Positions 23,091-31,748 of a stretch of DNA of 60,664 nt are shown here, piece after piece; positions within the stretch are counted from its first letter, which is position 1, and each line of letters begins with the position of its first letter. The position numbers were made by a program, and so were the translations under genes. This stretch comes from an uncultured Bacteroidales bacterium. Lineage in GTDB: Bacteria; Bacteroidota; Bacteroidia; Bacteroidales; UBA932. The notes beneath the pieces were generated by a model, which was not told where the DNA came from, ran no database searches, and was given only the letters and a program-made list of their open reading frames with translations. The DNA lies in NCBI GenBank assembly GCA_944325505.1, contig CALVAJ010000012.1:1-60664 (forward strand), read 5' to 3'.

Positions 23091-23159
23091 TATATCCGTA
23101 ATTATATGCCGCTTTAAATTCAAGAATTAATATATTTGTGATGCTAAAATACGTTGATT

Positions 23160-24341
23160 ATGGTCGATCTATCTGAATTTGAGAGCATTAGCCCTTATAC
23201 TGATGAAGAAGCCGTAGAGGCTTTGGGAAAAGTGGCGGAGAATCCTGTAATTTCGGAGGTTTCACAATATTTCTTTCCGGACGAGTCTCCGGATTTCCTC
23301 AAGAAACTGCTGAAAAGTGTCAAGGGAATCGATGATTTCCAGATCATGGTGATGTCGAAGGTCGTGGAGTGGGTCCTTGACCATACCGCGCATATCTTTT
23401 CGTATGACGGGATTTCCAATATCGACAGGAACCGGGGAAAATTCCTTGCCCTGTCGAACCACAGGGACATAATTCTGGATCCGGCCATTACACAGCTCGT
23501 ACTGTACCGCAACGGCATACCTATGACCGAAATAGCAGTCGGGGACAATCTCATATCCAACAAGTTCATCGAGTACCTTATCCGGTCCAACCGTATGATC
23601 AAGGTTGTCAGGGGCATTTCAGCCCGGGAGCTGTACCTTTCGTCCCAGATGCTTTCCAAGTATATAAGACTGAACATCACCGAGCAGAAAAGCTCGATCT
23701 GGCTTGCCCAGCGTCAGGGAAGGACCAAGGACGGTCTGGATATCACCGAGCAGGGTCTGCTCAAGATGCTGGACATGAGCGGCACTTCCGATTTCAGGAA
23801 GAACTTCGAGGAGCTGAACATAATACCGATGAGCATTTCGTACGAAATAGAGCCGTGCGATGTGCTTAAGGCACGGGAACTTCTCATTTCCAGGACACAG
23901 AAATACGTAAAGGCTCCGGGAGAGGACCTTAACAGCATTCTCACTGGCATAAAACAGCAGAAAGGCAACATCCACCTGAACATCGGCAAGCCTCTTACTT
24001 CAGAGGAGATTGCCGTGGCTTCCCTGTGCGACAAGAACGACCGTTATCAGCTTATCCGCCACGCTGTCGACCTGAGGGTCATAGAAGGCTACCGTCTGTG
24101 GAAGACCAATTATCTGGCATACGATATCGTGAACAAGACCACGAAATATTCCGACAAGTATACTGTCAGCGATATCGACTGGTTCACTGACTATATGGAG
24201 CATCAGCTCGATACGGTAGAGAAGGAACTCGACAGGGCCGCCCTGAAGGACATTTTCCTTCATATATATGCCAATCCTGTGGTATCCAAGGAGATGCTTC
24301 GCGAGAAAAACACTCTCCCGGGCTGGAAGACACAGCTGTAA
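23160..24341 (+). CDS. Glycerol-3-phosphate/lysophosphatidate acyltransferase-like protein (PlsB/PlsC superfamily)
   Basis: Acyltransferase-superfamily protein of 393 residues from the ATG at 23160 (a TTG at 23154 is in frame). The acceptor-site motif is LALSNHRDIILDP, where the His-to-Asp spacing is five residues, one more than the usual HX4D. A later block IWLAQRQGRTKDGLD matches the phosphate-binding region of PlsB-like enzymes. No clear membrane segment is seen. It probably acylates glycerol-3-phosphate, lysophosphatidate or another lipid head group. It converges on the cysteate synthase operon and ends at a shared terminator; a role in sulfonolipid N-acylation is only a speculation. Confidence 0.75.
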   Translation: MVDLSEFESISPYTDEEAVEALGKVAENPVISEVSQYFFPDESPDFLKKLLKSVKGIDDFQIMVMSKVVEWVLDHTAHIFSYDGISNIDRNRGKFLALSNHRDIILDPAITQLVLYRNGIPMTEIAVGDNLISNKFIEYLIRSNRMIKVVRGISARELYLSSQMLSKYIRLNITEQKSSIWLAQRQGRTKDGLDITEQGLLKMLDMSGTSDFRKNFEELNIIPMSISYEIEPCDVLKARELLISRTQKYVKAPGEDLNSILTGIKQQKGNIHLNIGKPLTSEEIAVASLCDKNDRYQLIRHAVDLRVIEGYRLWKTNYLAYDIVNKTTKYSDKYTVSDIDWFTDYMEHQLDTVEKELDRAALKDIFLHIYANPVVSKEMLREKNTLPGWKTQL

Positions 24342-24368
24342 AAGCTGTAAAACAAGCAAGCCTGTACG

Positions 24369-24400
24369 AAAAAAGCAGCCCCGCAAGGCTGCTTTTTTTT
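24369..24400. terminator. Terminator between acyltransferase and mscS
   Basis: AAAAAGCAGCC (24370-24380) pairs with GGCTGCTTTTT (24387-24397) around a six-base loop, followed by a run of eight T on the plus strand and A-rich sequence on the other side, so it works for both convergent transcripts. Confidence 0.85.
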
Positions 24401-24418
24401 CATTTGGTGCTCTTTCTG

Positions 24419-25348
24419 TCAGTTCTGTGAAATGTGTACGTCCATTTGCGGGAACGGGAAATTGATGCCTTTACTGGGGAGTACGGTATATATCTCCTCG
24501 TTCAGCTTATAGTAGACATCCCAGTAGTCGTCCTTTTTCACCCATACTCTTACTACGTACTCCACTGCGCTGTCCTTGAGGGCATTGACTGCGATAAGAG
24601 GATCGGCGGGGGCCCCTGTACCGGTGTACAGCACGCGTTTTTCCCCGTCTACTATCCCTTTGAGGACTCCCTTGACTTCCTCGGCATCGGTACCGTACTC
24701 GACACCTACCAGCCACTCGACACGGCGCATCGTGTTCATCGAGTAGTTGTTGATCGTACCGTTGGACAGGCTTCCGTTAGGGATGACGATAATCCTGTTG
24801 TCCGTAGTGGTGAGTTTGGTGCTGACGATATTCACATCGGTGACGGTTCCGGAATAACCGTCCTGCGTCTCGATGAAGTCACCGGCTTTGAACGGCTTGA
24901 AAACCAGCAGCATGATTCCGCCTGCGAAGTTCTGTACAGTACCGCTGAGCGCCATACCTATGGCCATACCTCCGGCGGCAAGAAGCGCTGCCAGAGATGT
25001 GGTGTTGATTCCGAGGGTGCCGACCGTTATTATCACGAGGATAATCATCAGAGAGATGCTTGTAAGACTCTCTACGAAAGATGCTATGGCCTTTTCAGTA
25101 TTGCGCCTCTCGAAGATCCTGTGGAGCATATGCCTGATTTTCTTTATCAGCCAGGCTCCGATAAAATATATCAGAAGTGCAATGACCACCTTGATACCGA
25201 AATTGATGGCTTCTTTCAGCAATTCCGGAAGCAGCTCATCAAGCGGCGTCGTAGCGATGTGCTCGATCGTGCTGCGTGCAGTCTGTTCTATCTTGTTCAG
25301 TTCGGCCGTGTCAACCGGAACCGTAGATTGCAATAAATTGTATAACAT
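24419..25348 (-). CDS. Small-conductance mechanosensitive channel, MscS family
   Basis: Inner-membrane channel of 309 residues. Three membrane helices are visible: KVVIALLIYFIGAWLI, LMIILVIITVGTLGI and the pore helix AALLAAGGMAIGMALSGTVQNFAGG with the Gly/Ala packing of MscS TM3. The beta domain has FKAGDFIETQDGYSGTVTDVNIVSTKLTT and NRIIVIPNGSLSNGTINNYS. It starts 23 bases after the cysteate synthase stop and is the last gene of the Hdr-like operon. MscS proteins release solutes under turgor; some export specific anions. A link to cysteate export is inference from position only. Confidence 0.92.
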   Translation of the reverse strand: MLYNLLQSTVPVDTAELNKIEQTARSTIEHIATTPLDELLPELLKEAINFGIKVVIALLIYFIGAWLIKKIRHMLHRIFERRNTEKAIASFVESLTSISLMIILVIITVGTLGINTTSLAALLAAGGMAIGMALSGTVQNFAGGIMLLVFKPFKAGDFIETQDGYSGTVTDVNIVSTKLTTTDNRIIVIPNGSLSNGTINNYSMNTMRRVEWLVGVEYGTDAEEVKGVLKGIVDGEKRVLYTGTGAPADPLIAVNALKDSAVEYVVRVWVKKDDYWDVYYKLNEEIYTVLPSKGINFPFPQMDVHISQN

Positions 25349-25371: not shown

Positions 25372-26664
25372 TCAGATTCCGAAAAGTTTCTCTACCTTTC
25401 CGATGATTTCTTCGGCAGGCAGGAATGTGTCGATCACCATGTCAGGTTTTGCATATACCACATCGTGATGCTCTTTGGTAAGAGACTCTCCGCCACCCGT
25501 TATGTTCAGCATGATGACTTCGTCTTTCTTTACGGAACCGTCGTTGACGGCTTTTTCAAGGCTTGCTACAGCCACAGATGCGGCCGAATAGATATCGATG
25601 CCTTCCAGTTCACGGAATTTCCCTTTCCAGAAATCCAGTTCGTTGTTGGTTACCTTGTAGATGTCTCCGCCGGCATCCGACATGGCATCGAAAAGGCCTC
25701 CTACAAGCGAATAAGGCGGTTTCCTGTTTGAAAGCACCTTGGCCTTGATTTCGGCTGCCTGATGCCTTGCTTCTTCTGCAGAAAGAGGTACAAGTGCCCT
25801 TGAACCGGCTTTCCATGAATCGTACATGATAGTGAACGGGTCGTTCTGGGACGGATAGAGACGCATCTTGTGGCTGCCGAACCGTCCGTCTTCGAGAAGC
25901 CTCAGGTTGTTTTCCCATACTGCGATAGTGCCTGTACCGCTTCCGATTGCCTGGAAATACGCATCCGGAATACGTCCGATTTTCTCTACGGCAGACAGGA
26001 GCGTAGTGCCCATTCCGTCCCTGCGGGCGATGTTCTTTGCCCCTCCTTCAGCCATGAATTTAGGAGACTGGCATACCTTGTCGGCAAGTACGATGGCATC
26101 GAAATAGTCGCATCCTGCAGGGGCTGCGATGATCTTCACGCAGTCATTGAGCGGGCGGTGGAACCACAGTGCGCTGATATTGTCCTCCGGAACCGAAAGC
26201 AGCAGAGGGATGTTGTTGTCTGAGCATACTTTGGCAAATGCCCTTGCCGTGTTTCCGGCAGATGCGACCACAAGCACCTTCCTGTTGTCCTCCGGCAGCC
26301 TTGCGCATACCGAATAAGCTTCGGTCTCTTTGAATGAGCATGTCTCCATGCACGCACCGATTTTCGGGAAATATCCGGAAAAGGTTATATACAGGTTTTC
26401 AAGTCCGAGATATGACGCAAGGGCTTCGCTTTTATATGTCACCGGAGCATGGGAGTGCTTCAGTGTCCTTTTTACCGGAAGCCACCCGGAGAATCTATAG
26501 AATCCGTCAAGGTCGTTTCTTATCTCGAATTTCCTGTTCTCATAGACAGCCCTTACCATTGCCGGAGTATCGCATTCCGGATCTGCCAGTGTCCAGCCGG
26601 CATCCTCGAATATCCTGCCGGTGGCACAGTTCATAAGTTTGTACTTGGTTGGAGTAAATGTCAT
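25372..26664 (-). CDS. Cysteate synthase (threonine-synthase-like PLP enzyme)
   Basis: PLP enzyme of 430 residues that makes L-cysteate from O-phosphoserine and sulfite. A general threonine synthase call is possible, but the whole pattern matches the archaeal cysteate synthase of coenzyme M synthesis: FSGWLPVKRTLKH, APVTYKSEALASYLGLENLYITFSGYFP (in two parts), TCSFKETEAY with the PLP lysine K112, VVASAGNTARAFAKVC, AEGGAKNIARRDGMGT, YFQAIGSGTGTIAVWE, RKPPYSLVGGLFDA and a glycine-rich phosphate site NITGGGES. In gut Bacteroidetes cysteate is the precursor of the sulfonolipid head group (capnine). It follows the membrane Hdr-like gene by 11 bases. The long-chain acyl condensing enzyme is not in this window. 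Confidence 0.87.
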   Translation of the reverse strand: MTFTPTKYKLMNCATGRIFEDAGWTLADPECDTPAMVRAVYENRKFEIRNDLDGFYRFSGWLPVKRTLKHSHAPVTYKSEALASYLGLENLYITFSGYFPKIGACMETCSFKETEAYSVCARLPEDNRKVLVVASAGNTARAFAKVCSDNNIPLLLSVPEDNISALWFHRPLNDCVKIIAAPAGCDYFDAIVLADKVCQSPKFMAEGGAKNIARRDGMGTTLLSAVEKIGRIPDAYFQAIGSGTGTIAVWENNLRLLEDGRFGSHKMRLYPSQNDPFTIMYDSWKAGSRALVPLSAEEARHQAAEIKAKVLSNRKPPYSLVGGLFDAMSDAGGDIYKVTNNELDFWKGKFRELEGIDIYSAASVAVASLEKAVNDGSVKKDEVIMLNITGGGESLTKEHHDVVYAKPDMVIDTFLPAEEIIGKVEKLFGI

Positions 26665-26675
26665 GATTTTTGGTT

Positions 26676-28481
26676 TTAGTTACTTGTATTTCTGTCGATT
26701 GTTTCTGCTATATCTTCAACTTTCCTGTCTGCATAGCGGCTGAATGTGCTCAGACACAGCGGACATGCCGTGACAATGACATCGGGCGATGCAGCGGTAA
26801 GGTTGTTCAATGCGTTTTCCGTCAGGGCCTTGCGCTTGTCGAAGCTCAGTGAAAGGCTGCCAACGCTTCCTCCGCAGCAGATGCTTTCTTTCCTGTTTTT
26901 CGCGGCCTCTACAAGTGTTCCCGCACGCAGCAGGACGTTGCGCGGCTGCTCGTATATGCCGCTGCCCCTGCCGAGTTCGCACGGGTCGTGATAAACGTAT
27001 TTTCTCGGGTCCCTTTTTATTTTCAGACGTCCCTCAGAGATGAGGCTGTCGATGAATTCCGTGTGGTGGACAATCCTTATTCCTTCAAGACTGTATCTCT
27101 CCTTGAAAATCCTGTAGCAGATAGGGCATGAGAGAAGCAGGGTGTCCGCGCCTGAATTCCGGATTATTCCGGTATTTTTCTCCACCATCTGCTTTGCCTG
27201 GTCGAAACGTCCCGCCATCCACATCGGCCTGCCGCAGCATATTCCTCCGTCCTTGTCCATCAGCTCATATTCGACACCGGCCTTTTTCAGGAGCGACTCC
27301 ATCGCTTTTCTGATTGACGGGGTAAGTGCGGTCATGCAGCCGGCATAGTAGAGTATTTTCCCGCGGCTGTCAATTGCAAGGGATGCCGTATCTATTGAGG
27401 AGTAGTCAGGACTGAGACCGTATTTGCGGACTGATCTCTGCGCTATACGGAGCTTGTCGCCTTCGACTCCTACCGGACAGATTGCAGTACATTTCCCGCA
27501 CAGGAGACATTTGTCGCTTATTTCTTCTATCCGCACTTCATTGCCGCGGCGTATCTGCCGGTTAAGATATACGGTCGTATCCTTGATATTCCCTTTCTGG
27601 ACGCTCATCGGGCAGGCGTCGATGCACAGTCCGCAGCTCGGGCAAGAGTAGACCTGCGCCTTTGCAAGGCCTTTTCTCGCGTGTCGTATCTTTATTCCGG
27701 CATTCCTGAGCGGTATCAGCAGGATTTCGGAAGGTATGTGCATGTACCGCGTAAAAGGCAGTACGCAGAAGAATATTCCCAAAGCGCATGAATACGCCCA
27801 CCAGGAAGGAAGCATATTGGCATGGTCGCTCAAAAAGGATGTGAATACGTAATTCAGTGATTTCGTGAGAAACGACCCTCCGCTGATGTCTGCGGTAAAT
27901 CCTTCGGCAAGCAGCCTCAGAGGGAAAATGGACCATAGGGAGTACAGGCCTACCAGATCAAGGAAGCTCGGGTTGGTAGTCCTTCTCATGCCGAATATCT
28001 TCGAGCGTATCCTCTTGATTATCGCCAGCGCTATGCCGCTGAGTACGACAAGAAGGAAAAAGTCCATAAGGAAGAAGAGCACTGCTCCCTTCATGGTGGT
28101 TTCCGTCTCTGCGACAAAGTACCTGAAGAATATCGGATAGTAAAAGAGCTTTGCCCGGTGCGGAGTGTAGAGCAGAACCTCGATATGTCCGACGACAATG
28201 AGCATGAACCAGCCGAAAGCGATACTGGAGTGCATATAGCCGAGCAGCTTGTTCCTTTTCCATATTTTGACATGCAGAAGGCAGTCGCAGAAAATGTCCT
28301 TGATGTTCTTTGCCAGTGTCTTGGGTGTGATGAGGGATATGAAGAAACGCCTCCTGTCCTCTTTCGGCAACTGTCCAATTATCCTTATCAGGGCTATGAT
28401 GCAGTACGTGAGGATGAATACCATCCCTATCATGAACGGCAGCACGAAATCATTGTATCCTGTAAGAAACCTCTCTCTCAC
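26676..28481 (-). CDS. Membrane-bound HdrD-like fusion: heme b domain, two 4Fe-4S clusters, two CCG domains
   Basis: A 601-residue fusion. Residues about 13-255 form a NarI/HdrE-like membrane domain with five to six helices and histidines that could bind heme b (H84, H99, H108, H248). A ferredoxin domain follows with C280-C283-C286-C290 and C325-C328-C331-C335. The C-terminal third has two complete CCG domains: C382, C415-C416, C452/C455, and C501, C535-C536, C573/C576. These bind the noncubane 4Fe-4S clusters that reduce disulfides in heterodisulfide reductase. It combines HdrE, HdrC and HdrD in one chain, similar in idea to DsrMK. It probably exchanges electrons between menaquinone and a thiol/disulfide. 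The start is GTG, two bases after the hdrC2 stop. Confidence 0.88.
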   Translation of the reverse strand: MRERFLTGYNDFVLPFMIGMVFILTYCIIALIRIIGQLPKEDRRRFFISLITPKTLAKNIKDIFCDCLLHVKIWKRNKLLGYMHSSIAFGWFMLIVVGHIEVLLYTPHRAKLFYYPIFFRYFVAETETTMKGAVLFFLMDFFLLVVLSGIALAIIKRIRSKIFGMRRTTNPSFLDLVGLYSLWSIFPLRLLAEGFTADISGGSFLTKSLNYVFTSFLSDHANMLPSWWAYSCALGIFFCVLPFTRYMHIPSEILLIPLRNAGIKIRHARKGLAKAQVYSCPSCGLCIDACPMSVQKGNIKDTTVYLNRQIRRGNEVRIEEISDKCLLCGKCTAICPVGVEGDKLRIAQRSVRKYGLSPDYSSIDTASLAIDSRGKILYYAGCMTALTPSIRKAMESLLKKAGVEYELMDKDGGICCGRPMWMAGRFDQAKQMVEKNTGIIRNSGADTLLLSCPICYRIFKERYSLEGIRIVHHTEFIDSLISEGRLKIKRDPRKYVYHDPCELGRGSGIYEQPRNVLLRAGTLVEAAKNRKESICCGGSVGSLSLSFDKRKALTENALNNLTAASPDVIVTACPLCLSTFSRYADRKVEDIAETIDRNTSN

Positions 28482-28482
28482 G

Positions 28483-28821
28483 TCAGTCTTCTTTATAAAG
28501 TTTGCAAATCGACAGTATCAGATGCCTGGTGTTTATTCCGCGCGGACATACCATGCTGCACTTTCCGCACAGCATGCAGCACCGGAGCATCTTCACCGCG
28601 TCCTTTTCCTTTCCTCTCTGCAGGGCATGGAGCACTTTCCTCAGGCTCATGCCGCTGAAGTTCCCTGCAGGGCATGTGGCGGTGCAGGAGCCGCAGGACA
28701 TGCATTTCCACGCATCGGGCTCGAGCTCATGCAGTCTGTTGAACAGTGTGAGATCCACATTGTCCAGATTGACAGTCGAGCTTGGCGATATGCTGAATCC
28801 GAAAATATTCTCCATTGTCAT
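28483..28821 (-). CDS. HdrC-like iron-sulfur protein (second)
   Basis: A 112-residue protein with two 4Fe-4S motifs: C40-C43-C46-C50 (WKCMSCGSCTATCPAGNF) and C82-C85-C88-C92 (CMLCGKCSMVCPRG), with an additional Cys at 81. It is the size of a minimal HdrC subunit and would pass electrons between the flavoprotein and the membrane subunit. Its ATG overlaps the hdrA stop by 4 bases, and the next gene starts 1 base after its stop, so it is tightly coupled with both. Confidence 0.87.
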   Translation of the reverse strand: MTMENIFGFSISPSSTVNLDNVDLTLFNRLHELEPDAWKCMSCGSCTATCPAGNFSGMSLRKVLHALQRGKEKDAVKMLRCCMLCGKCSMVCPRGINTRHLILSICKLYKED

Positions 28822-29834
28822 AGCCTGTTGATATATGAATGTATCTCGAGTGCTGCGGACCGTGCTTCGGCAAGGGTTTCAGGTACGGTCTTCGGGCCTG
28901 TGCACGCACCGGCATAGTATATCCCGTCCCTTGATGAGGAAGTGATGTCCGCTATGTTGTCCCGGCTCTTGAAAAAGCCGTCGGAGTCTGTCTGAAGCGA
29001 TACCATGCCTGCCAGGGTGCTGCAGTCCGGGTTGCAGACCATTCCTGCCATGAGGACCAGAAGGTCGAGGGTTACCTTTACAGGTTTTCCTGCAAGGGTG
29101 TCTTCTGCCTTTACTATGACTTTGCCCTCTATGTTTTCACTTACTTCCGATACGCGTCCCCTTATGAAGCGTACGCCGTAGTCCCTTTGCGCGGCGATAT
29201 AGAAGTCTTCATACTTTTTCCCGAACATTCTGAGGTCCATGTAGAAACAGTATACCATGGCGTCGGGAAACCTCTTCTTGATCTCGATTGCCTGCTTGAC
29301 GGCGGTTATGCAGCATACTTTCGAGCACTGCGGATTCCTGGCTTTCTCATCTCTGGAGCCTACGCAGTGTACGAATCCTATCGCATTCATTTCTGAGCCG
29401 TCTATGCGGTCATCGTTTCCGTCGTTGAACCAGTGCTCGAGGTCGCTGTTGGTCATCACCTGATCATAGACGCCGTAGCCGTATTCTTCCTTTTTTCCGG
29501 CATCGAATACTGAAAACCCCGTAGTCACAAGCACGACTTTGGCTATGACTGAGACACCGTTTGTCAGCATTATGTTGTAGCTGTCCTTGAGCCTGTTCAT
29601 AAACGAGATTTCAGTGTTCAGGAAGATATTGGCCCTCCCTGTAGCTTCTATGAGGGACGAAACCACATCCTTTGCCGGGGTCATGTCCGGAAAGAGACAG
29701 TGCCACTGTGCGACATGTCCCCCGAGACGGTCCGACTTCTCTACTATTATCGGGTTGTAACCAAGTTTAAGAAGCTGTCTGGCCGCTTCCATTCCGGCGA
29801 TTCCTCCGCCTACTATGACTATGTTGTCTTTCAT
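28818..29834 (-). CDS. HdrA/QmoA-like FAD protein
   Basis: Flavoprotein of 338 residues from the ATG at 29834; an upstream in-frame ATG at 29864 would overlap hdrB by 20 bases and place 10 residues before the FAD fold, so I prefer the internal one. The FAD dinucleotide fold is NIVIVGGGIAGMEAARQL. The HdrA-type cysteine cluster is in FVHCVGSRDEKARNPQCSKVCC (C157, C170, C174, C175). The second FAD segment is GIYYAGACTGPKTVPETLAEARSAAL. It lacks the N- and C-terminal ferredoxin domains of methanogen HdrA, so it is closer in size to the HdrA of sHdr systems. It is the flavin hub of the complex. Confidence 0.88.
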   Translation of the reverse strand: MKDNIVIVGGGIAGMEAARQLLKLGYNPIIVEKSDRLGGHVAQWHCLFPDMTPAKDVVSSLIEATGRANIFLNTEISFMNRLKDSYNIMLTNGVSVIAKVVLVTTGFSVFDAGKKEEYGYGVYDQVMTNSDLEHWFNDGNDDRIDGSEMNAIGFVHCVGSRDEKARNPQCSKVCCITAVKQAIEIKKRFPDAMVYCFYMDLRMFGKKYEDFYIAAQRDYGVRFIRGRVSEVSENIEGKVIVKAEDTLAGKPVKVTLDLLVLMAGMVCNPDCSTLAGMVSLQTDSDGFFKSRDNIADITSSSRDGIYYAGACTGPKTVPETLAEARSAALEIHSYINRL

Positions 29835-29844
29835 ATCAGTGCGA

Positions 29845-30915
29845 TTAGCAGCATTTGAGCACACCGGGGAGTTCCGGCCGCATGATGTCTTTCCTGTTCA
29901 GTCCCTTGTACTTGTCTTCAGGACTGTATTCTATTCCGATCTTGTCCAGGAGCGGCTCTACGGCCACCTGGTGGAGCTGCAGCCCCAGATCCCACGGGTC
30001 ATATCCGAGGACAAGACCTGCCACTTCCTCATAGGTGAATACCGGTATTCCGTACCCGTTCTGCCCGTATGTCTTGCCCTCCATCTCGGCGATCACATAC
30101 TGCCATCTGTCGAGGAAATACGGACAGCCGGGGCAGTTGGTGATTATCATGTCCGGATGATAAGGTTCCATCGATTCGAACTTCTTGTGCGTATTGGACA
30201 GGGAGTAGCCCCTGTTGGCCTTTACATGGTACTGCCTGAATCCGTATCCGCAGCAGTGCCTGCGTTCAGGATAGTCGATTACGCTTCCTCCCCATGACTC
30301 TATCATTCCGCAGAGCACATAAGGGTATTCGGCGCCGCCGACTCCTTTTGACGGGAACATTTTCGAGTAATGGCATCCGATATGCTCCACTACCTTGAGC
30401 GGCTCTCCGGTCTGTCTGTTGATCAGCCTGAACTTTGCCTTCTCGGCAATTTCATTCCTGTATTTGTAGATCAGGTCGCTTGCGTGCGCTATGTATTTGG
30501 GTTTCTTGAATTCCCTTCGGCATGCCTTCCACAGCAGCTCCCGGATCCTGGTCTCCAGTTCCGGAAACTCATGCCATGTCTCGAGAATTTCCAGATAGTT
30601 TCCGAAAGAGGTGATGCAGGAAGCCACATAGTTTTCGTACCCTGCTTCCGTCATCAGGGCGAACTGCCTGGCTACGATAGTCATTACGGTTTCCTGCGGT
30701 ATGGTGTCGCAGTGGTATGCTATCCCTCCGCAAGTGGTGTGGTTCGCAGCTTCATAGAAGTCTTTTCCCAGCACATTGCGGCAGATTTCGAGGAACATCC
30801 GTTCCGCTCCCGGAAAGAAGTTCTGCCTGATGCAGCTCCTCACGTAGAACCACTTGTCGTCCGGAATTTCTTTCTGGTAGTCCGCCCATATTTTCTGTTT
30901 TCCTTGGTATATCAT
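29845..30915 (-). CDS. HdrB-like subunit with one intact and one degenerate CCG domain
   Basis: A 356-residue HdrB-like protein. The second CCG domain is intact (HIGCHYSKMF, RHCCGYGFR, TNCPGCPYF). The first is altered: C28 is followed 33 residues later by TTCGG (C62) instead of a Cys-Cys-Gly, and the final CXXC is reduced to ASCITS (C100). So one noncubane cluster should be present and the other may be lost or bound differently. It resembles the HdrB1 subunit of sHdr. It starts 48 bases after hdrC1 and ends just before the hdrA start. Confidence 0.86.
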   Translation of the reverse strand: MIYQGKQKIWADYQKEIPDDKWFYVRSCIRQNFFPGAERMFLEICRNVLGKDFYEAANHTTCGGIAYHCDTIPQETVMTIVARQFALMTEAGYENYVASCITSFGNYLEILETWHEFPELETRIRELLWKACRREFKKPKYIAHASDLIYKYRNEIAEKAKFRLINRQTGEPLKVVEHIGCHYSKMFPSKGVGGAEYPYVLCGMIESWGGSVIDYPERRHCCGYGFRQYHVKANRGYSLSNTHKKFESMEPYHPDMIITNCPGCPYFLDRWQYVIAEMEGKTYGQNGYGIPVFTYEEVAGLVLGYDPWDLGLQLHQVAVEPLLDKIGIEYSPEDKYKGLNRKDIMRPELPGVLKCC

Positions 30916-30963
30916 GGTCTTTCTGTAGACAGGTTTTATGGCCCTGAAACGGGCCTGTGGTGA

Positions 30964-31665
30964 TTATTCTTCGCTGTTGAAATGGCCCGGGGATATCTTT
31001 TCGAAGGTCATCCTGCAGTATTCGTCGATATCCATGCCCAACTCACCGGCTTTCTGTTCCGAATATTTCTCTACGGCTTCGATCCGTTCCGTACCTCCAG
31101 TTACATCGAAGATGCTTTTGAGCTCGTCCAGGGATTCCTGCGGAATCTTCCTGAGCACTCCCGGGCCTTCGCCCTTGAAGTTGGCCCCGAGACGTTCGAA
31201 ATTATCCTTGAGGTGTTCCGTATGCCACTTCCACACAGGGCCGGACTCCACATGGTCCTCCCATTTGAACGTATCCGGATATACGCAGTATCCGTAGTTT
31301 AGAATGTTTCCGGTGAGTATGCGGGTCAGGGGCAAGAGCTGTCTCCCTTTCTCTGAACATGTAAAATACCCGAGCTTTGCGGAAAGGTTCCTCAGGGCCA
31401 TGATCACCAGTCCCGGAGCGTTTTTCCGCGGACAGCGTGTGACGCATGACATGCACTCGCCGCAGTACCATATGACATCGCTTTTGAGGAGCTTCTCTAT
31501 CTCGGCTTCGTCCTTGCTCTGGACCGTGTCGACAATCTTCCTCGGGTCATACCTGTAGAATTCTGCGGCGGGGCAGATGGCCGTACAGGTCCCGCAGTTG
31601 ATGCAGGTCTTCAGGCCTTCCTTTACCCTGTAGTCTTTTATGAGTTCATCGTAAAGTTTACCCAT
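30964..31665 (-). CDS. HdrC-like iron-sulfur protein (first), start of operon
   Basis: A 233-residue HdrC-like protein with two 4Fe-4S motifs: C21-C24-C27-C31 (CINCGTCTAICPAAEF) and C68-C71-C74-C78 (WYCGECMSCVTRCPRKNAPG). The remainder is helical and soluble, with GHFNSEE at the end. Length is close to HdrC1 of sHdr systems. It is the first gene of the operon; a full promoter lies 52-83 bases upstream, within and after the 3' end of rlmD. Confidence 0.86.
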   Translation of the reverse strand: MGKLYDELIKDYRVKEGLKTCINCGTCTAICPAAEFYRYDPRKIVDTVQSKDEAEIEKLLKSDVIWYCGECMSCVTRCPRKNAPGLVIMALRNLSAKLGYFTCSEKGRQLLPLTRILTGNILNYGYCVYPDTFKWEDHVESGPVWKWHTEHLKDNFERLGANFKGEGPGVLRKIPQESLDELKSIFDVTGGTERIEAVEKYSEQKAGELGMDIDEYCRMTFEKISPGHFNSEE

Positions 31666-31716: not shown

Positions 31717-31748
31717 CAAAGGTAGAAAAATTTTGAAGAAATGTCAAA
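31717..31748 (-). promoter_or_regulatory. Promoter of the Hdr-cysteate synthase operon
   Basis: On the minus strand TTTG (31745-31748) is followed after exactly 20 bases by TACCTTTG (31717-31724). This matches the Bacteroidetes primary sigma consensus. The -33 box overlaps the rlmD stop codon, so the operon is expressed independently of rlmD, with a leader of about 40-45 bases before the hdrC1 start. Confidence 0.8.

Follow-up and report, generated by a model that had tools for sequence, protein, structure and literature searches.

The window analysed here is a stretch of 60,664 nucleotides from an uncultured Bacteroidales bacterium (contig CALVAJ010000012.1; its genome is designated G000), in which five genes related to those of heterodisulfide reductase (Hdr) stand in one run with a gene for cysteate synthase, an enzyme that makes cysteate from sulfite and O-phosphoserine. 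The question raised by this locus is what a redox complex of the Hdr type does beside a sulfite-using biosynthetic enzyme. Our comparative analysis suggests, at a probability of roughly 0.6, that the five genes encode a membrane-bound, sHdr-like complex belonging to sulfonolipid (capnine) biosynthesis and making its sulfite. In many Bacteroidales without the known route from sulfate to sulfite, the complex probably forms sulfite for sulfonolipids from reduced sulfur, since it is present in genomes that lack such a route and often adjoins the sulfite-using enzyme. In the following, handles beginning with G denote genomes and those beginning with L denote loci.

The hdr-like gene run and its products

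The genes lie in a single leftward run, which is listed here in the direction of transcription together with its putative expression signals. The membrane-bound HdrD-like fusion is referred to as B2 or memB2.

31717..31748, minus strand: Bacteroidota-type promoter TTTG-N20-TACCTTTG, from a pattern search, 51 nt from the hdrC1 ATG
30964..31665, minus strand: hdrC1-like gene, 233 aa (Fer4 families; HdrC families below cut-off)
29845..30915, minus strand: hdrB1-like gene, 356 aa (CCG family PF02754; HdrB at 130 bits; match to a solved HdrB)
28818..29834, minus strand: hdrA-like FAD protein gene, 338 aa (match to 6tjr)
28483..28821, minus strand: hdrC2-like gene, 112 aa (Fer4 families; two [4Fe-4S] motifs)
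26676..28481, minus strand: membrane HdrD-like fusion (B2), 601 aa (family matches, hydropathy, AlphaFold model)
25372..26664, minus strand: cysteate synthase, 430 aa (TIGR03844; 9k3c)
24419..25348, minus strand: MscS-type channel, last gene (family matches)
24362..24412, minus strand: terminator-like hairpin and T run after the MscS gene (RNA fold –18.6 kcal/mol, z –3.43)

Successive intergenic distances from hdrC1 to the MscS gene are 48, 10, –4, 1, 11 and 23 nt. The gene content, span, order and strand of a single operon, as given in a preliminary description of the locus, are thereby confirmed, as are its gaps of 48 bases or fewer, with one overlap of 4 nt. The hdrA open reading frame as listed spans 29864-28818, and an in-frame ATG at 29834 gives the 338-aa protein. 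The full promoter that had been claimed is also present: the TTTG-N20-TACCTTTG pattern, which we take to be the Bacteroidota promoter consensus, has 6 matches in the window (0.38 expected), one of them upstream of hdrC1, and a sigma-70 scan of the window stayed at chance level (7 matches against a mean of 8.1). The hairpin after the MscS gene was not among the sites listed by a separate terminator scan. The channel gene itself is found 3′ of cysteate synthase in only part of the near relatives.

The Hdr subunits match Hdr families, all below the NCBIfam equivalog cut-offs (for example, HdrB 130 against 450 and HdrA2 242 against 1100). They are therefore termed Hdr-like, and an identity as CoM-S-S-CoB reductase is not established. 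Between 71 and 113 homologues were compared for each subunit, and 99-100% of them keep the Fe-S cysteines: hdrC1 has two [4Fe-4S] ferredoxin motifs with all 8 motif cysteines in 102/102 homologues, hdrC2 retains its 8 in 71/71, and hdrA carries a cluster motif C-x12-C-x3-CC with its cysteines in 113/113. Residues 15-341 of hdrA align to 4-336 of 6tjr (349 aa), a full-length match of 208 bits to what we take to be the Hyphomicrobium sHdrA. In hdrB1, the proposed catalytic subunit, the C-terminal CCG motif is intact, and the N-terminal one is reduced to C28, C62 and C100 in an alignment of 108 homologues, so the earlier statement that all Fe-S, FAD and CCG motifs are present holds for the Fe-S cysteines and is slightly too strong for the CCG motifs. 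The nearest named relatives of B1 belong to Candidatus Cryptobacteroides (94% identity).

The last Hdr-like part had been described as membrane bound, and hydropathy and the structural model agree with this. Together with the alignment, they give memB2 an N-terminal helical membrane domain, two [4Fe-4S] sites and two intact CCG motifs. Residues H70, H84 and H248, present in 95/95 homologues, are possible heme b ligands. The AlphaFold model of memB2 is weak (mean pLDDT 74, pTM 0.45); its best Foldseek match is Mycobacterium smegmatis EtfD, 9ojn (E 2e-16, 18% identity, TM-scores 0.35/0.30), presumably an ETF:menaquinone oxidoreductase that feeds menaquinone, and HdrB chains are among the next structural matches. 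The assignment of cysteate synthase is firm, at 452.5 bits against a TIGR03844 cut-off of 324.9 and 580 bits to PDB entry 9k3c (‘Cysteate synthase’).

Association with sulfonolipid genes

Conservation of the run was assessed in 149 genomes of the window's family, where strong HdrB1 hits occur in 62 (7/69 hits, at E 5e-5 to 8e-4, were set aside) and cysteate synthase above cut-off in 73. The two are found together in 53/62 HdrB1 genomes, where they lie within 8 kb of each other in 45, 462 kb apart in 1 and on different contigs in 7, so the synteny is not confined to one genome. Seven of the nine family genomes with hdr and no cysteate synthase carry a relative of this enzyme scoring 97-119 bits, and cysteate synthase itself occurs in 0/10 family genomes with such a relative (counted where a hit below cut-off had 78-119 bits over nearly the full length; an 81-bit fragment with a stop in G031 was left out).

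A scan of named genomes gave 560 B1 relatives, of which the closest 80 were analysed as loci. In 68 of these, the sequence extends over 5 kb past B1 on the downstream side, and cysteate synthase is found there in 41; some sulfonolipid gene is present in the available stretch in 44/80. In 9/80, the whole pathway lies on one strand in the order sulA-SDR-C1-B1-A-(C2)-memB2-cysteate synthase. Seven of these nine were inspected gene by gene. A gene of the VOC (glyoxalase) family precedes sulA in L162, L173, L183, L185 and L195; L225 has no gene labelled VOC, and the displayed stretch of L207 starts past the expected place. Spacing between genes in the L162 run is 2 to 12 nt where they do not overlap. 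A variant is seen in L224, in the order VOC-sulA-CSL-SDR-C1-B1-A-B2, where CSL is a threonine-synthase-like enzyme.

The identity of sulA in these loci was checked by similarity and by its active site. The SulA-like protein of L066 scores 583 bits to 7u7h, which we take to be Alistipes finegoldii SulA, and 555 bits to 28eh (‘Cysteate-C-fatty acyltransferase’). The active site of SulA, the cysteate acyl-ACP transferase of A. finegoldii, differs from that of serine palmitoyltransferase at Lys281 (PMC9304779), and this lysine is present in 42/42 SulA-like proteins checked. In G000, sulA followed by SDR lies on contig 34, away from the hdr operon. A coenzyme-M-like reading, in which cysteate would be converted to sulfopyruvate near Hdr, had been prompted by an aminotransferase-family gene adjoining hdr and CSL and was rejected, as that gene is SulA-like.

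The CSL enzyme occurs together with sulA and hdr in L063, L064, L091, L100 and L105, which represent four families, as well as in L224. It reaches 117 bits against TIGR03844 for the one scored. At E 1e-10 it has no match to 9k3c, and among solved structures threonine synthases are its closest relatives. In a sample of 295 genomes of the order, CSL is found in 54, cysteate synthase in 81 (including a 312-bit hit in G257, kept though below cut-off) and both in 0. From its position beside a Lys281-type SulA and this lack of overlap we infer that CSL is a candidate second cysteate synthase; examples are at L063:8622-9941, L091:15450-16670 and L241:9441-10763. The VOC-family protein, of about 350-415 aa, is present in sulA loci both of the hdr type and of the type with cysH described below (L162:5157-6233, L224:3965-5038 and L242:4153-5268; also L231, L233, L238, L241, L247, L063, L064, L091 and L100). 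Its solved relatives are marginal; it is a possible unrecognised sulfonolipid enzyme.

Across the same order sample, sulA is present in 85/91 genomes with hdr vs 124/204 without (odds ratio 9.1), and when each family contributes a single genome (119 genomes) in 36/37 vs 52/82 (p 3e-5). Cysteate synthase alone is only weakly associated (33/91 vs 48/204, odds ratio 1.85, p 0.03; one genome per family, p 0.38), and hdr shows no association with CSL alone in this sample (p 0.42). The co-occurrence check proposed in the preliminary description is thus strong for sulA and weak in the order for cysteate synthase by itself; sulA was adopted as the main partner after the first test, on cysteate synthase alone, came out weak. 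Of the 58/91 hdr genomes without cysteate synthase, 14 have CSL, 41 have sulA without a recognised synthase and 3 have none of these, and when 20 sulA regions of those 41 genomes were inspected, hdr was found to adjoin sulA in L258 only, a further hdr operon from outside the order-level loci considered below. On these patterns, the partner of hdr looks like the entire sulA pathway and not one enzyme alone. When 116 genomes sampled across the phylum were scanned, B1 was found at E 1e-40 only in the window's own genome; the 20 listed among the remaining 115 all belong to the same class and not to the same order.

Sulfite source in hdr genomes

The distribution of hdr was compared with that of PF01507, a family covering CysD and CysH (PAPS-reductase family). 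Among 76 order genomes without a PF01507 hit, hdr is present in 27/38 with sulA vs 1/38 without (p 2e-10), and with one genome per family in 11/16 vs 0/11. In the 135 genomes with either cysteate synthase or CSL, PF01507 is in turn present in 25/47 with hdr vs 82/88 without (odds ratio 0.083, p 1e-7), and the contrast persists when each family is represented by a single genome (56 genomes, p 1.4e-3).

Gene neighbourhoods point in the same direction. Twenty CSL regions were picked by hand from the 54 CSL genomes, three of them under 10 kb (L228, L232, L234) and two chosen in the knowledge of a PF01507 hit near CSL (L242, L246). Within this selection, cysH occurs together with CSL and sulA in 9/20, having been identified by NCBIfam in L242, by Pfam in L246 and by BLAST in the other seven, so that hdr occupies a slot held elsewhere by cysH. 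The order in L242, sulA-VOC-cysH-cysD-cysN-anion transporter-cysQ-CSL, amounts to a complete sulfate-to-cysteate route. No sulA or cysH label was found beside CSL among the genes shown for L230, L237, L240, L244 and L245, and cysH was not seen in the hdr-CSL-sulA loci L063, L064, L091, L100 and L105.

In 48 genomes of the family, any PF01507 hit is found in 9, with one of CysH size only in G045 and one of CysD size in G000. No CysH was detected in G000, the genome of the window, and its CysD-sized hit (G000:C3:47297-47980) perhaps serves sulfation and not sulfate reduction. A sulfite reductase partner for hdr was also sought and none was found: the sulfite/nitrite reductase domain is present in 0/25 family genomes, G000 included, while 11/14 control genomes are positive.

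Five loci with cysteate synthase and no hdr were inspected (L066, L067, L068, L069 and L070). In L068 and L069, an FNT anion channel stands in the place of hdr, preceded by MarR and with a SulP transporter after cysteate synthase; the channel (L068:7904-8743, L069:10392-11219) could import sulfite or hydrosulfide. Beside cysteate synthase in L070 (3214-7602) are genes for an HmcE-like membrane protein, an Fe-S/CCG protein, a cysteine desulfurase and a KamA-like radical SAM protein, a set which may be another persulfide-to-sulfite device. The cysteine desulfurase makes persulfide a candidate sulfur donor.

Proposed mechanism and alternatives

The preliminary description had offered several roles for the complex, namely that it supplies or regulates sulfite or uses a thiol/disulfide cofactor. 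Of these, supply is favoured by the comparative data and the other options gained no support: the link to sulfonolipids and to sulfite is supported by the gene runs with sulA and cysteate synthase, the co-occurrence with sulA, and the inverse distribution and equal position relative to cysH. In the mechanism we propose, the substrate would be reduced sulfur, either sulfide or a persulfide carried by an enzyme or a thiol. B1 would bind this substrate at its non-cubane Fe-S site, where oxidation would yield sulfite, with electrons passing from B1 through C1, A (FAD), C2 and memB2 (Fe-S, CCG and probable heme b) to menaquinone. The cysteate synthase of the same operon would then combine the sulfite with O-phosphoserine, and SulA and the SDR, encoded elsewhere in G000, would convert the cysteate to 3-ketocapnine and capnine. 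We infer the oxidative direction, the sulfur donor, the menaquinone acceptor and the sulfite product alike. The sulfite/sulfide couple, at about –116 mV, lies below menaquinone at about –74 mV, and the reaction is therefore feasible. A fuller version of this proposal is put forward more tentatively, at somewhat short of even odds: that this Hdr complex represents a new type, in our samples confined to the order of the window, dedicated to lipid synthesis, oxidising sulfide or cysteine-derived persulfide to sulfite into the menaquinone pool without oxygen, sulfate or a lipoate-binding protein, and exchanging with CysH in the same kind of locus.

A number of observations weigh against sulfite supply for sulfonolipids as the role of the complex. 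Some concern the inverse relation with sulfate reduction: hdr is also present in 58/171 sulA genomes with PF01507, and is therefore not merely a substitute for sulfate reduction; hdr and PF01507 show no association over all 295 genomes (p 0.2); the one-per-family contrast among sulA genomes has p 0.02 when one PF01507 hit is required and p 0.23 when two are; 11/38 sulA genomes without PF01507 are also without hdr; and L066 and L067 show no substitute for hdr, with only MarR and sulA-SDR beside cysteate synthase. Others concern the gene association. Cysteate synthase occurs without hdr in 20 family genomes, and 36/80 named hdr loci have no sulfonolipid gene in the available stretch. Outside the window's family, sulfonolipid genes adjoin hdr in only 3/20 fetched order-level loci. 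At the order level, hdr without cysteate synthase, which the preliminary description had named as evidence against its own proposal, is in the literal sense common (58/91 hdr genomes), and in the 41 genomes among these with sulA, no hit to cysteate synthase or CSL passed the thresholds. G030 and G111 retain A-(C2)-B2 beside cysteate synthase and have C1-B1 elsewhere, which is hard to reconcile with a need for B1 at that place. The p values given here ignore relatedness, which inflates them, and some of the correlation could stem from a shared anaerobic way of life.

Among the alternatives, the one that survives best, though unlikely, is a general respiratory module of anaerobic Bacteroidales that oxidises sulfide or thiols, with sulfonolipid synthesis tapping its sulfite or only sharing the lifestyle. 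Such a module would accommodate the hdr operons that stand alone in 17/20 fetched order-level loci and the presence of hdr in sulA genomes with PF01507 (58/171), yet a sulA hit is absent in only 6/91 hdr genomes, hdr is found in only 1/38 genomes with neither PF01507 nor sulA, and in several lineages sulA and the synthase share one gene run with hdr. Rather improbable is a complex that works in reverse within sulfonolipid metabolism, using menaquinol electrons to clear surplus sulfite or persulfide or to hold sulfite low. Sulfite is toxic, the operon has a MarR regulator gene next to it in several genomes, and the intact CCG motifs of memB2 resemble those of disulfide-reducing HdrD; a detoxifying device would, however, be expected alongside sulfite made by CysH, whereas among genomes with cysteate synthase or CSL hdr is rarer where PF01507 is present (odds ratio 0.083), and the best structural match of memB2 is EtfD, presumably a protein that feeds menaquinone. 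It is very improbable that the complex acts at a different redox step of sulfonolipid synthesis, for example through a thiol/disulfide cofactor that works together with VOC or SDR: the VOC protein does occur in both hdr-type and cysH-type loci, but VOC or SDR is also found where cysH is present and hdr is not, so that what varies with the sulfite source is hdr, and the published steps after cysteate need acyl-ACP and a ketoreductase (PMC9304779; PMC11211663).

Sulfite supply to sulfonolipid synthesis invites comparison with the sHdr-LbpA system, which the window complex resembles in the order C1-B1-A-C2-B2, in an HdrA of sHdrA size (about 350 aa) and in the proposed product, sulfite. While sHdrB2 is soluble, B2 here is fused to an N-terminal membrane domain, and the neighbouring genes are biosynthetic. 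For sHdr, type I is given as shdrC1-B1-A-H-C2-B2 working with LbpA, and type II as shdrC1B1AHB3 with etfAB, B3 being a fusion of C2 and B2 (PMC11582611). The earlier statement that the gene order copies sHdr loci accordingly holds for C1-B1-A-C2-B2 and fails for the H gene of type I: hdrA and hdrC2 overlap by 4 nt, leaving no H gene between them, and there is none elsewhere in the operon. Unlike in type II, C2 and B2 are not fused in the window, each having its own gene, and etf genes are absent from the operon. The partner proteins of sHdr are also missing, which counts against the proposed role: no dedicated LbpA was found, and TusA is rare (2/13 genomes). The GCV_H family is present as a single copy in 24/25 family genomes, with none in G041, and the GcvH of G000 lies not with hdr but in a run that we take from its sequence to be gcvT-gcvH-gcvP. 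Membership of the window complex in sHdr was rejected on the missing H, the lack of a dedicated LbpA and the membrane-bound B2, though the complex may work like sHdr.

Methanogen HdrABC and HdrDE share with the window complex the subunit families, CCG motifs, [4Fe-4S] chains and the HdrD-like part of the membrane protein. They differ from it in that the window proteins score below the equivalog cut-offs, HdrA is of the short form and B1 has a reduced N-terminal CCG motif. EtfD 9ojn, likened to memB2 as the best Foldseek match of a weak model, has 1042 aa in contrast to 601 aa, and the window operon has no etf gene. The capnine or sulfonolipid pathway (Cys, SulA/CFAT, KCR; Alistipes, Chryseobacterium) corresponds to the window genome and its relatives in cysteate synthase, SulA-type enzymes and the SDR, whereas in two papers on it the word sulfite is absent and heterodisulfide reductase has no match (PMC9304779, PMC11211663). 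Literature searches, which covered few subscription papers or preprints, gave no text joining sulfonolipid, sulfite and cysteate, and a description may exist elsewhere. In the literature searched we also did not find the question of the sulfite source for cysteate in bacteria without sulfate reduction, or a lipid-biosynthetic use of an Hdr-like complex.

If the proposed role is correct, Hdr-like complexes work in biosynthesis too, the head group of a bacterial lipid derives from reduced sulfur, and finding hdr in a gut metagenome is not necessarily a sign of sulfur respiration or methanogenesis. Sulfonolipids have been reported as signals to other organisms and likely human health factors (PMC3463246, PMC11211663).

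Two further observations concern gene arrangement. Pairs of C1-B1 without labelled A, C2 or membrane genes adjoining them are found at L055:9105-10858, L107:9708-11479 and L127:9028-10715, in genomes where the A, C2 and membrane genes are present elsewhere. In the window, a weak acyltransferase-like protein is encoded at 23154-24341 on the plus strand, convergent to the end of the operon, with PF01553 just below cut-off; a relative of it adjoins the hdr operon in L051, and it is possibly a lipid acyltransferase.

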